From the NCBI RefSeq assembly GCF_025751515.1, contig NZ_JAOWLE010000002.1, positions 124,001 through 188,000 on the forward strand: a DNA stretch of 64,000 nucleotides, read 5' to 3'. Under the pieces are notes generated by a model. The model saw only the letters and a list, made by a program, of their open reading frames with translations. It was not told where the DNA came from and did not search any database. This DNA comes from Actibacterium sp. XHP0104 (GTDB lineage: Bacteria; Pseudomonadota; Alphaproteobacteria; Rhodobacterales; Rhodobacteraceae). Both the position numbers and the translations under genes were made by a program. Shown here piece by piece: positions 19,130 through 29,599 of this stretch; the stretch's first letter is position 1; the number at the start of each line of letters is the position of its first letter.

Positions 19130-19204
19130 TGGAGCGGGCGATGAGATTCGAACTCACGACCCTAACCTTGGCAAGGTTATGCTCTACCCCTGAGCTACGC
19201 CCGC
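19130..19204 (-). tRNA. tRNA-Gly(GCC), copy 2 of a tandem pair
   Basis: A 75-base tRNA. The acceptor GCGGGCG pairs with CGCCCGC, the anticodon arm is TAACC-TTGCCAA-GGTTA with anticodon GCC, the T-arm GTGAG-TTCGAAT-CTCAT is intact, and CCA is encoded (19130-19132). The sequence is identical to the copy at 19352-19426. It has its own promoter. Confidence 0.97.
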
Positions 19205-22386: not shown

Positions 22387-22892
22387 GCGGCGAAGGCGGA
22401 AAACCGGCAGGCAAGTTCCGCTGGGGGCGGGTGGTTCTGGTGCTGTCGCTGGGGCTGAACCTGCTGGTGTTCGGGCTGATCGGCGGCGCGATCCTGAAAC
22501 ATGGCGGCCCGCCATCACGCGCTGCGGGGCAGGTCGATTTCCTGGGCTATAGCGGCCCCTATGCGCGCGCGCTGGATCACGAACAGCGCGAACATCTGCG
22601 TGACCGGCTGGGCCAGAGCGCCGACACCTGGCGCGAGAACCGCGCCGCCGTGCGCCGTGATTTCCAGCTGATCCTGACGGCCCTGCGCGCGCGCCCCTAT
22701 GATGCGGCCGCGCTTGAGGCCGCGCTTGAGGCTCAGCAGGCCCGCGTCGATGCCCATGCCCGCCAGATCCGCGCCGAGATGCTGGCCCAGATCGCCGCCA
22801 TGGATGACCACGACCGGCATGAATTCGCGGAACGTCTGGAACGGATGCTGCGCCGGGGTGCGCGCCACGGTCACGACCGCGACGACGACTAG
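22383..22892 (+). CDS. Periplasmic heavy-metal sensor-like protein (Spy/CpxP/ZraP-type helical)
   Basis: A 169-residue protein with an N-terminal membrane anchor (VVLVLSLGLNLLVFGLIGGAIL, about 17-38) and a long-helix periplasmic domain rich in Arg and Ala, ending in a His/Asp-rich tail (RHGHDRDDD). This resembles the heavy-metal resistance/CnrX-Spy group, where a membrane-anchored sensor partners an ECF sigma and anti-sigma. ATG overlaps the upstream stop. The convergent diguanylate cyclase gene overlaps its last four bases. Confidence 0.75.
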   Translation: MSGEGGKPAGKFRWGRVVLVLSLGLNLLVFGLIGGAILKHGGPPSRAAGQVDFLGYSGPYARALDHEQREHLRDRLGQSADTWRENRAAVRRDFQLILTALRARPYDAAALEAALEAQQARVDAHARQIRAEMLAQIAAMDDHDRHEFAERLERMLRRGARHGHDRDDD

Positions 22893-24262
22893 GCGGCGTT
22901 GGGGGCGCTGCGCACCTTGTTGCGACCCTCGGATTTCGCCCGGTAAAGCGCGCCGTCCGCCAGCGCCAGCAGGCGATCCACGTCGCGCTCCAGCCCGGTC
23001 GGGCTGATGGCCATGCCGATGCTGACCGACACAGTGATCGAGCCACGCCCCTCGGGCAGCAGGATCGGCAGGGTGCCGATGGTCTGGCGCAGCCGTTCGG
23101 CCATGCGCCGGGCGAGATCGGGCGCGGTGTCGGGCATGGCCACCAGGAATTCCTCGCCCCCGATCCGCGCCACCAGGTCCGAGGGCCGCAGATTGGCGGT
23201 GATCTGCCGCGCCACCCGTTCCAGCACCGTGTCGCCGGCGGCATGACCGTGGCGGTCATTCACGGCCTTGAAATGGTCGATATCCAGCAGCATCACCGCG
23301 AAACTGCGGTCCGTCTGCGCCGCCCGATCACCCATCTGTTGCAGATGCGGCAGCGCGTAACGGCGGTTGAACAGCCCAGTCAGCGGGTCGGTCACCGCCA
23401 TGCGCAGCCCGTCCTTGACCGAGGCGCGCAGCCTGTCAGCCTGATGCTTGCGGCGCAGTTGCACCTCTAGCCGATGCGCCAGCTCGGCCGGGTCGAACGG
23501 GGTGGCCAGCAGGTCATTCGCGCCCAGATCCAGCGCCATGGCGGCGGTGTCATGGGCGGTCTCGGGCACCACGATCAGAACCGCGCTGTGGCGCGTCGCG
23601 GCGCGGGCCCGCAGGTCGGTCAACAGCCGCAGACCATCGCCCGGCCGGTCCAGATCGGCGGCGATCACGAACAGATCGGGCGCGGCCCCGGCATCGCCCA
23701 GGGCCTGTGCGCGCGTCATTACCTCTAGCGTCGCATGCACCTGTGAACGCAGCGCGGTCTTCCAGGCCAGCGCCTGTTCCCGCCGCGCCGCAACCAGGGC
23801 GACGCGCCCCTGCCGGGCAAAGGTTTCGGGCGGTTCGGCAAAGCCCAGCACCCGGCGGGTGCTGTCGCGCAGGGCCAGTTCCTGGGTGGTCTCGCGCGCC
23901 CGAAGCAGGCTGCGCACACGCGCCAGCAGGGTGGTTTCATCCAGCGGCTTGGGCAGAAACTCATCCGCGCCGGCCTGTAGCGCGCGCATCTTCTGGCCCG
24001 GGTTGCGATCGGCCGAGAAGATGATGATCGGGATATCGGCGGTCTCGGCATCGGCGCGAAGGCGGCGGCAGACCTCGATTCCATCCATATCGGCCATGAT
24101 CATATCCAGCAGAATCAGATCGGGCCGCTCGCGCCGCGCCACCGCCAGCGCATCCTGCCCGCCGCTGGCTTGCAGCACCTCATAGCACGCCTCGCTCAGC
24201 CGGACCTTCATCACGATGCGGTTTGTCGCGATATCGTCTGCGACGAGGATTCTCCCCGGCAT
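22889..24262 (-). CDS. PleD-like two-receiver diguanylate cyclase
   Basis: Cytoplasmic response regulator of 457 residues making c-di-GMP. The first receiver has VADD (7-10), phospho-acceptor Asp53 in LILLDMIMADMDG and the switch lysine in LPKPLDE; the second receiver is degenerate. The C-terminal GGDEF domain has the signature GGEEF, with the inhibitory I-site RPSD five residues before it, so product feedback is expected. The ATG at 24262 has a strong GGAG ribosome site. This matches Caulobacter PleD in architecture; no kinase is adjacent. Confidence 0.92.
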   Translation of the reverse strand: MPGRILVADDIATNRIVMKVRLSEACYEVLQASGGQDALAVARRERPDLILLDMIMADMDGIEVCRRLRADAETADIPIIIFSADRNPGQKMRALQAGADEFLPKPLDETTLLARVRSLLRARETTQELALRDSTRRVLGFAEPPETFARQGRVALVAARREQALAWKTALRSQVHATLEVMTRAQALGDAGAAPDLFVIAADLDRPGDGLRLLTDLRARAATRHSAVLIVVPETAHDTAAMALDLGANDLLATPFDPAELAHRLEVQLRRKHQADRLRASVKDGLRMAVTDPLTGLFNRRYALPHLQQMGDRAAQTDRSFAVMLLDIDHFKAVNDRHGHAAGDTVLERVARQITANLRPSDLVARIGGEEFLVAMPDTAPDLARRMAERLRQTIGTLPILLPEGRGSITVSVSIGMAISPTGLERDVDRLLALADGALYRAKSEGRNKVRSAPNAA

Positions 24263-24325
24263 TGAGGTCACTCCTTGCCTCTGATTTCTGGTGCTCGTAT
24301 CCAGTTCAGATATGGCCAAGAAGTC

Positions 24326-26008: not shown

Positions 26009-27748
26009 ATGTCCGACAAGGTCGCCGAGGGGCGTATCACCATGGCAACGATCGGCGCGCTGGCCGGTTTGTGCCAGTGGTATCTGATCGACATACTGAC
26101 CGATCTGTTGTCGGACAACTTGACGCTTTTGTTGTTTATTACAGCAAATTACGGTGTGTTCTTCGTGTCGCTTCTGGCGTTGATCGGCCCGTTGCGCATC
26201 GGCCCGGCGGCGCTGTGGTCGACATGGCAGGCGCTGGCGGTTGCGGGGTTGCTGACCTGGGCCAGCCTGCGCTTTGAACAGCTCGATGATTTTCTGCAAA
26301 CGCCCTACGCACTGGCCGCTTCCGCCATCATCGCGCTGATACCGCTGCCCTTCATCATCACCCGCCGGGTCGAAGGCCGCTGGCTCGACTACTCCGGCCT
26401 GTTCAATCACAGCTGGAACATCGTCGTGCGCTATGCGGCGTCCTGGGTGTTCGTTGGCGTGGTCTGGGGCGTGATCATGTTGTCGGACGCGTTGTTTCAG
26501 CTCATCGGCATCGACGCGATCGAGCAACTGCTCGACCTGGACCCGGTGCCCTTCATGCTGACTGGCGCAATCCTGGGCCTTGGCCTGGCCGTGGTGAACG
26601 AGCTGTCGGATTACGTGTCGCCCTTCCTGGTGCTGCGCCTGTTGCGGCTGCTGCTGCCGGTGGTGCTGGTGGTCAGCGTGGTCTTTCTGATCGCATTGCC
26701 GATCCGTGGCCTGTCACAGCTCTTTGGCGCCTTTTCGGCGGCGGGCACGCTGATGGCCATGGCGATGGGCGCGGCGACCCTGGTGACCACGGCGCTGGAT
26801 AGAGACGAGACCCATGCCGTGCGGTCACCCGCGATGCGTGCCATGACACAGCTGACCGCGCTGGTTATTCCGGCGCTCGGGGCGCTGGCGGTCGCGGCGA
26901 TCTGGATGCGCGTGGCCCAATACGGCTGGACGCCGACCCGGCTGTTGGCGGCCACGAGCGCGGCGCTGGTCATGGGCTATGGCCTGTCCTACGCGCTGGC
27001 GGTGGCGCTGCGCCGCAACTGGGGCGCCCGGATTCGTGCCGCCAATACCTGGATGGCGCTGGTGCTGGTCGCGGTGGCGGTGCTGTGGCTGAGCCCGGTG
27101 ATGAACCCCGAACGCATTGCCACCAACAGCCAGATCGCCCGCTACGAGGCCGGCAAGGTCAGTGCCGAAGATATCGACCTGTGGAGCATCGGCCGCGAAT
27201 GGGGTCGCGCCGGCGAGGCCGGGCTGGATCGTCTGGCTGCACTTGAGGGTTCGGATGCCGATCAGCTGAAACAGCGCCTGACCGCCCTGGCCGAGGCCGA
27301 CAACAAATACGCCTTTCACGATGCCGAGGCCCAGCCGAAGAACGAAAAGGCCGCCCTGGCCCTGCACGAGCTGATCCCTGTTCTGCCCGAGGGTCTCAGC
27401 CTGCCGGACGAGGCCCTGCTGACGCTGAACCGATGGGATGTGAATAACATCGTCGAAAGCTGCGCCAAGCCCACGCCTGCCGGCAATCCGGGCTGTCTGG
27501 CGATCTTCCTTGATCTGACGGATACGCATGAGGGCGACGAGATCGTGTTGGCCTATATCGGCAGGCCCGGCGAACTGTTGGTTCGGGCGCTTTATCCCAA
27601 TGGCGCGGGCGGTTTCGACACACATGGCCACAACTCCATCAAAAACCCGGATGCGCTGGACCTGTTGTTCGAAGGTCAGTTCGAGCTGGCCCCGGTTCCG
27701 GCCCGAATGCTGCGCCTTGATGGGACGGATCTGTTCTTTGGCCGCTGA
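26009..27748 (+). CDS. DUF4153 domain multi-spanning membrane protein
   Basis: A 579-residue protein with about ten hydrophobic segments between residues 12 and 375, then a soluble C-terminal domain of about 200 residues containing an LTLNRWDVNNIVESCAKP segment. This matches the DUF4153 family, whose function is unknown. ATG at 26009 has an AAGGAG site seven bases away. It stands alone, 60 bases before the H-NOX gene; no enzymatic motif is visible. Confidence 0.82.
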   Translation: MSDKVAEGRITMATIGALAGLCQWYLIDILTDLLSDNLTLLLFITANYGVFFVSLLALIGPLRIGPAALWSTWQALAVAGLLTWASLRFEQLDDFLQTPYALAASAIIALIPLPFIITRRVEGRWLDYSGLFNHSWNIVVRYAASWVFVGVVWGVIMLSDALFQLIGIDAIEQLLDLDPVPFMLTGAILGLGLAVVNELSDYVSPFLVLRLLRLLLPVVLVVSVVFLIALPIRGLSQLFGAFSAAGTLMAMAMGAATLVTTALDRDETHAVRSPAMRAMTQLTALVIPALGALAVAAIWMRVAQYGWTPTRLLAATSAALVMGYGLSYALAVALRRNWGARIRAANTWMALVLVAVAVLWLSPVMNPERIATNSQIARYEAGKVSAEDIDLWSIGREWGRAGEAGLDRLAALEGSDADQLKQRLTALAEADNKYAFHDAEAQPKNEKAALALHELIPVLPEGLSLPDEALLTLNRWDVNNIVESCAKPTPAGNPGCLAIFLDLTDTHEGDEIVLAYIGRPGELLVRALYPNGAGGFDTHGHNSIKNPDALDLLFEGQFELAPVPARMLRLDGTDLFFGR

Positions 27749-27808: not shown

Positions 27809-28402
27809 ATGCACGGTCTGATCAACAGGTCCATCCAGTGTTTTGTGCAGGATACCTATGGCGCGCAGGCCTGGCAGCAGGTCGCCGAGGCGGCCGAGGT
27901 GTCGCCCGACGGGTTTGAGGCGATGCTGCGCTATGACGATGTGGTGACCACAAACATGCTGGAATGCCTGTCCGAGCGGCTGTCCAAGCCGCTGGATGTG
28001 CTGCTTGAGGATCTGGGAACCTATCTTGTCGCCAATCCCCGGCTCGAGGCCACGCGCCGCCTGCTACGGTTCGGGGGTGAGGATTTTCTTGAATTCCTGC
28101 ATTCACTCGAGGATCTGCCCGGCCGCGCCCGACTTGCCGTGCCCGACCTCGAACTGCCCGAGCTTGAGGTGCGCGAAGATGGCGCATCGTGCTTTCGGTT
28201 GGTCTGCAACTGGCGCTTTCCGGGCGCCTGCAACCTGATGAGCGGCATCCTGCGGGCCATGGCCGATGACTACGGCGCGCTGGTGGTCCTGGATGTCGAA
28301 TACGGCTATCGCCCCTATGTCCGGATCGAGCTGCTGGATGGCGCCTATGCCGAAGGCCGCCAGTTCGATCTGGCCCGCAAGACGGGGGCTGCCAATGCCT
28401 GA
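27809..28402 (+). CDS. H-NOX heme sensor protein with altered YxSxR motif
   Basis: A 197-residue heme-nitric oxide/oxygen binding protein. The opening MHGLINRSIQCFVQDTYG and the helix EDFLEFLHSL with the proximal heme ligand His98 are typical. The YxSxR motif that grips the heme propionates is, by my alignment, V-C-N-W-R at 132-136: the Arg is kept, while Tyr and Ser are replaced by Val and Asn. Heme may therefore bind less tightly or in another pose. The next gene encodes an HNOBA-GGDEF protein and overlaps the stop by eight bases, so NO sensing is presumably coupled to c-di-GMP. Confidence 0.9.
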   Translation: MHGLINRSIQCFVQDTYGAQAWQQVAEAAEVSPDGFEAMLRYDDVVTTNMLECLSERLSKPLDVLLEDLGTYLVANPRLEATRRLLRFGGEDFLEFLHSLEDLPGRARLAVPDLELPELEVREDGASCFRLVCNWRFPGACNLMSGILRAMADDYGALVVLDVEYGYRPYVRIELLDGAYAEGRQFDLARKTGAANA

Positions 28403-29418: not shown

Positions 29419-29493
29419 TGGCAGCCCGTAGGGGAATCGAACCCCTCTTTCCAGGTTGAAAACCTGGCGTCCTAACCGATAGACGAACGGGCC
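29419..29493 (-). tRNA. tRNA-Glu(TTC), second of a tandem pair
   Basis: A 75-base tRNA with acceptor GGCCCGT/ACGGGCT, anticodon arm CCAGG-TTTTCAA-CCTGG (anticodon TTC), T-arm GGGGTTCGATTCCCC and encoded GCCA 3' end. Identical to the copy at 29525-29599. The 31-base gap holds no promoter, so both are co-transcribed. Confidence 0.97.
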
Positions 29494-29524: not shown

Positions 29525-29599
29525 TGGCAGCCCGTAGGGGAATCGAACCCCTCTTTCCAGGTTGAAAACCTGGCGTCCTAACCGATAGACGAACGGGCC
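29525..29599 (-). tRNA. tRNA-Glu(TTC), first of a tandem pair
   Basis: Identical 75-base copy, anticodon TTC, encoded CCA at 29525-29527. It is nearest to the promoter at 29619-29647. Confidence 0.97.

Follow-up and report, generated by a model that had tools for sequence, protein, structure and literature searches.

A Rhodobacterales H-NOX-like protein, encoded in overlap with a diguanylate cyclase, that by alignment lacks the known heme-holding residues

H-NOX proteins of the Rhodobacterales are annotated and treated as NO sensors. The window analysed here, a stretch of 64,000 nucleotides from Actibacterium sp. XHP0104, encodes one whose gene overlaps that of a diguanylate cyclase, and raises the question of whether this protein can hold heme and, if it does not, what it may do for the cyclase. 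The initial annotation had described an H-NOX with a canonical N-terminus and a proximal His98 that lacks the Tyr and Ser of the YxSxR motif. It had suggested altered heme affinity or geometry, a zinc or redox sensor, or a partly heme-independent regulator of the cyclase.

The protein belongs to the H-NOX / HNOB fold family by both profile and fold. It matches Pfam HNOB (PF07700) with an E-value of 9.7e-21 (74.8 bits, cut-off 25.5) and PDB H-NOX chains with an E-value of 5e-15, and it is the only HNOB match in the genome; a search of NCBIfam assigned no family to it. Its structure was predicted with AlphaFold (pLDDT 89.8), and the model superimposes on sGC beta and Nostoc H-NOX with Z of 21-22 and rmsd of 2.0-2.3. 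The N-terminus is indeed canonical. The protein starts at M1 of the fold, and the open frame of 205 amino acids leaves it without an N-terminal extension able to plug the pocket. The model was also considered as a possible NO-activated state. The nearest human sGC beta structures are activated ones (Z 21.9, 21.6 and 21.1), against 20.3 and 20.1 for inactive or unliganded ones and 21.4 for Nostoc H-NOX, a difference too weak for that reading. Upstream of the gene lies a DUF4153 membrane protein (26009-27748, + strand; match 2.9e-11).

Nostoc H105, the axial heme ligand, which has the same number as H105 of sGC beta, was used to locate the heme-holding positions. In canonical H-NOX the helix equivalent to residues 93-110 is tied to the heme iron. 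Nostoc H105 falls opposite P104 of the window protein in both a single-sequence and a 68-sequence profile alignment, and a 248-sequence alignment also supports this position, leaving helix F with no proximal His. His98 sits six residues away and was rejected as the ligand on the Nostoc and 248-sequence alignments. Of 173 relatives, 114 have His at position 98, and Tyr, Phe, Gln, Leu or Asp also occur there; the D. shibae residue is Asp, that of P. denitrificans Glu. The pairwise and profile alignments likewise place Nostoc Y134, S136 and R138 opposite C133, W135 and F137. The Tyr and Ser are therefore missing as first described, and the Arg is gone too: the V-C-N-W-R stretch proposed as the motif (residues 132-136) is one residue out of register, and R136 lies one residue from the conserved Arg position. 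The alignment offers no other Tyr/Ser pair at the propionates. With P104 at the axial site and C133-W135-F137 at the propionate clamp, all four heme-holding residues are lost by alignment. The idea of altered heme affinity or geometry took the proximal His to be intact, and it is absent.

A zinc or redox sensor of the known form is also unsupported. Heme-free and zinc-site H-NOX proteins are described in PMC7108781 and PMC12329717, and the zinc site of the So protein is given there as Cys 139, C164, C172 and His161, with C164 and C172 in the C-terminal part. That kind of site, of the V. cholerae, S. oneidensis and C. crescentus type, takes three Cys and a His or Gln. The window protein has Cys at 11, 53, 128, 133 and 141 only, with none past residue 141 to supply the C-terminal part of the site, and the zinc site was ruled out.

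Table 1. Features of the H-NOX-like gene, its product and the overlapping cyclase gene
Feature	Position	Strand	Remark
H-NOX-like protein, 197 aa	27809..28402	+	Without proximal His and Y/S/R of YxSxR
H2	27812..27814	+	156/175 in clade, about 3% in canonical H-NOX
R83-F88 (RRLLRF)	28055..28072	+	Nearly invariant, clade only
H98	28100..28102	+	Mistaken for proximal His; by alignment
P104 (CCC) at proximal-His position	28118..28120	+	Within predicted helix 93-110
C133-N-W135-R-F137	28205..28219	+	Register equivalent of YxSxR; by alignment
M151-L158 (MADDYGAL)	28259..28282	+	High conservation in clade, mostly absent from canonical H-NOX
8-base overlap, H-NOX stop / cyclase start (ATG 28395)	28395..28402	+	
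Diguanylate cyclase, 337 aa	28395..29408	+	HNOBA-type PAS ~6-101, helix 129-170, GGDEF 165-318

Related proteins were surveyed across the Rhodobacterales and beyond. The sample joined the 80 best-ranking of 533 related loci from named genomes, all 123 matches in an even draw of 149 genomes from this family, and the best-scoring loci from draws of the order, class and phylum. Two of the 260 hits were too short, and the set came to 248 distinct sequences: 72 canonical H-NOX and a clade of 176 related Rhodobacterales proteins that includes the window protein. Three divergent sequences (L194, L200 and L202) were scored as canonical and then placed in the clade because they carry the clade motifs. 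A branch with SH-aLRT support of 97 (99 with more rows) separates the 72 canonical rows from the rest, in quick LG+G4 trees that have a few long rows and in which many branches lack support (105 of 245 open).

The two groups differ sharply at the heme-holding positions. The axial His is present in 69/72 canonical sequences and 11/176 clade members, the Tyr of YxSxR in 72/72 and 1/176, the Ser in 71/72 and 34/176, and the Arg in 69/72 and 8/175. All four occur together in 66 of the 72 canonical sequences and in none of the 176 clade members, 126 of which have none of them. The fold landmarks G3, Y42, G70, P117 and G146 persist at 97-100% in both groups; with this contrast in residues, the counts indicate that the loss exceeds chance and is a family trait. 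The even family draw agrees: among its 103 readable clade copies, position 104 is His in 7 and Pro in 77, Tyr133 is found in 1 and all four residues in none. Clamp positions 135 and 137 vary across the clade, most members lacking Arg or Lys at 137; C133 is clade-specific (108/176). Two single loci are of note. L097 (genome G086) is a canonical-type H-NOX with YxSxR intact and Gln for the axial His, apparently an independent loss, and sits beside a clade-type copy; in L201 (G036) the clade H-NOX spans two overlapping frames, possibly a frameshift.

The clade proteins appear to be maintained. Among 14 non-overlapping pairs without His104, dN/dS ranged from 0.025 to 0.19 with a median of 0.059 (a Nei-Gojobori-type count in which some dS exceed 1, near saturation), and 27 columns are invariant among 68 sequences. 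The dN/dS values show strong purifying selection on the clade H-NOX. In one genus (code g24) several genomes give only very weak HNOB matches (E 1e-5 to 1e-8), a sign that the protein diverges fast there; His104 is present in one copy of that genus (L275, genome G360).

The axial position switches repeatedly within the clade. For a tree of this residue, 13 His loci found by a DNA pattern and 7 relatives were added, giving His104 in 25 of 194 distinct clade sequences, which is not a frequency since His loci were sought. The tree requires 15 changes of His104, at least 8 of them forced on well-supported branches, with the direction of gain or loss unreadable. In one genus (code g121, which includes L100), H104 goes together with Y-x-F-x-K in three copies, and the two copies with N104 lack the Tyr, the pattern expected if both vanish once heme goes. 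Where a genome of the 149-genome draw carries both a canonical and a clade copy (13 genomes), the clade copy always lacks His104; in the order draw, however, genome G347 pairs a canonical copy (L216) with a clade copy that has it, which counts against a strict division of labour between the two types.

Two correlates of His104 were tried and dropped. His104 goes with Lys or Arg at 137 (7/25 with it, 10/169 without, p=0.002) and with Phe, Trp, Tyr or His at 135 (15/25 and 29/169, p=1.5e-5), and in a comparison of 8 phylogenetically independent pairs this link vanishes (median p 1). NO-forming nitrite reductase was found in 6/7 genomes with His104 and 29/73 without in a first set of 80 of 106 genomes (p=0.039), where the 73 include G017 and G101, neither of which has a clade copy. 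A second, non-overlapping set, in which "no His" means only that the DNA pattern is absent, gave 7/13 and 55/159 (p=0.23), and the union 13/20 and 84/232 (p=0.016). From the second set G237, whose pattern hit lay outside the H-NOX, was dropped, and six canonical-only genomes were excluded. Genomes G200 and G280 have His104 though the pattern missed both. After they were reclassified, the second set stood at 7/15 and 55/157 (p=0.41) and the union at 13/22 and 84/230 (p=0.064), and the association was not established. In the window genome, the PF02239 and TIGR02376 models found no NirS and no NirK, a point in favour of the reading given below that still leaves other sources of NO possible.

The partner cyclase looks intact. 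Its GGDEF motif is complete (match 3.6e-43), and it has an RxxD that we take to be the I-site. Its HNOBA match (1.4e-4) is just under the cut-off, with Pfam HNOBA found in 44 of 55 partners, and its profile matches the H-NOXA domain of PDB 2p04 at 3e-6 and sGC beta1 206-382 at 3e-5; the helix between PAS and GGDEF is 42 residues long. The adjacent HNOBA-GGDEF gene makes the locus an H-NOX/HNOBA-cyclase operon. A same-strand GGDEF gene comes next at 171 of 172 testable clade loci (3 more loci end too early), compared with 11 of 69 canonical H-NOX loci, and the first ATG of the partner lies no more than 20 nt from the stop of the H-NOX gene in 139/163 relatives. The window genome has two EAL matches and three GGDEF matches; the latter number suggests a very small c-di-GMP network. 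The best of the three belongs to a diguanylate cyclase at 22889-24319 (- strand) with what we take to be a PleD-like receiver part. Just downstream of the partner cyclase are two tandem tRNA-Glu (ttc) genes (29419-29493 and 29525-29599, - strand), and a second tandem pair, tRNA-Gly (gcc), lies at 19130 and 19352.

Altogether this suggests that the window protein is, rather probably, a pseudo-H-NOX: an intact fold that would hold no heme through His or YxSxR and would act as a regulatory subunit for the diguanylate cyclase whose gene overlaps its own. The residue loss, the predicted fold, the purifying selection and the near-universal pairing with an HNOBA-PAS/helix/GGDEF protein all support this reading at the level of sequence, and the strong deletion phenotype of the P. 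denitrificans H-NOX, which also has P104, is counted for a regulatory role (PMC5588039). A partly heme-independent regulator was thus the best supported of the options first proposed, and an understated one: with the axial His missing as well as YxSxR, the evidence favours action wholly independent of heme. The protein would hold no stable heme. By analogy with sGC beta, it would dock on the PAS domain and helix of the cyclase and damp c-di-GMP synthesis either constitutively or on a non-heme input. Without an Fe-His bond restraining helix F, its default may be the inhibiting state. In the His-bearing minority, D. shibae included, the His would have been retained or gained anew, and these proteins may sense NO. 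A further possibility, though less likely than not, is that throughout the order a former NO sensor came to respond to a non-heme signal. The clade would then have gained a near-invariant surface of its own (H2, RRLLRF, MADDYGAL) for controlling the cyclase and dropped heme, with single lineages regaining or keeping the His; NO sensing would be switched on or off within a genus by maybe a one-base change.

Three other explanations were weighed. Heme might still be bound by a substitute ligand (H2, H98 or C133), with NO or redox state sensed at altered affinity. We consider this unlikely, though the presence of these candidate ligands counts against the pseudo-H-NOX reading. In its favour, H2 and C133 are clade-specific, and the P. 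denitrificans H-NOX is termed an NO-binding heme protein in PMC5588039, from genome annotation. H98, however, is not conserved, C133 is Ala in P. denitrificans, the Arg or Lys at 137 is gone in most members, and H2 is about as frequent with H104 (19/25) as without it (150/169); retained regardless of H104, H2 does not act like a substitute ligand. The emptied pocket might instead bind another small hydrophobic ligand that switches the cyclase, a reading to which we give little credence. The fold and hinge glycines are retained, the pocket has no plug, and among much weaker fold neighbours is Bet3, with palmitate bound in one chain (Z 8.7). No such ligand is known, however, a Z near 8.7 may reflect a common arrangement only, and residues 135 and 137 of the clamp vary without having re-specialised. 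That the protein is a decaying, functionless remnant of an NO sensor is very improbable. The weak HNOB matches in some g24 genomes would fit decay, but a pseudogene was rejected on the dN/dS values of the 14 pairs, and the invariant columns, the retained operon and the deletion phenotype in P. denitrificans (PMC5588039, PMC12582929) tell the same way.

Most of the Rhodobacterales H-NOX proteins surveyed here, and likewise the well-studied one of P. denitrificans, lack the known heme-holding residues, and the scattered state of the His, even within a genus, offers natural pairs for asking about NO sensing; L267 and L280 (genus code g155) are one pair with and without His104. Part of this is already in print. 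Kumar and Spiro 2017 (PMC5588039) report H-NOX without the axial His in P. denitrificans and R. sphaeroides, and Lee-Lopez and Yukl 2022 (PMC8738867) describe a "group 5" H-NOX whose sensing mode is unexplained there; what the His-less members sense is left open in that text. The window protein, 42.9% identical to its P. denitrificans relative (E 2e-34) with P104 in both, fits this group by these features, and its value is that of a clean natural experiment. As section 10 of that paper presents it, group 5 is a cluster seeded from P. denitrificans and resembles the clade in having a proximal His in under 10% and mostly Pro, and in retaining the hinge Gly without zinc-type Cys. It is said to have no conserved Cys, whereas C133 is frequent here, and the section is silent on YxSxR, on repeated His switching and on D. 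shibae membership. No published account of YxSxR loss or of repeated His changes in the clade was found in a search that left the subscription literature mostly uncovered. What the present analysis adds as new is that the YxSxR clamp is lost as a whole, that the axial His has switched repeatedly and that the D. shibae protein falls in the His-bearing minority.

The P. denitrificans H-NOX (Pden_3719) / DgcA pair, read from NZ_CP141053.1, is like that of the window in having P104, no Y133 or R137 (A133, S135, Q137; 43% identity) and a GGDEF partner downstream, with the first partner start found in that record 8 bases past the H-NOX stop, where the window genes overlap. Its hnoX mutants make less biofilm and a mutant without both cyclases makes more, and H-NOX was proposed to inhibit DgcA (PMC5588039); Islam 2025 (PMC12582929) found that the deletion reshapes metabolism, with c-di-GMP under detection. 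The D. shibae H-NOX (L136) and Dgc1 share the clade and operon of the window pair, with H104 and C-x-W-x-R instead of P104 and C-x-W-x-F. This pair is said to be the subject of a 2018 study by Bedrunka. NO-bound D. shibae H-NOX is stated to inhibit Dgc1 in the later papers PMC7232146, PMC8846402 and PMC6473078, and a review table lists it as an NO sensor with heme; because this protein is reported as a sensor, loss of Tyr and Ser alone does not end sensing. The pseudo-H-NOX of sGC alpha, as described in PMC8196705, likewise has the fold without the His and/or YxSxR, is part of a cyclase and binds no heme. Its pocket, however, is filled by an N-terminal extension that the window protein lacks, and it belongs to a class III cyclase, whereas the window H-NOX is a separate polypeptide with a GGDEF partner. 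Compared with sGC beta, the window pair keeps the layout but divides it between two genes and uses a different type of cyclase.
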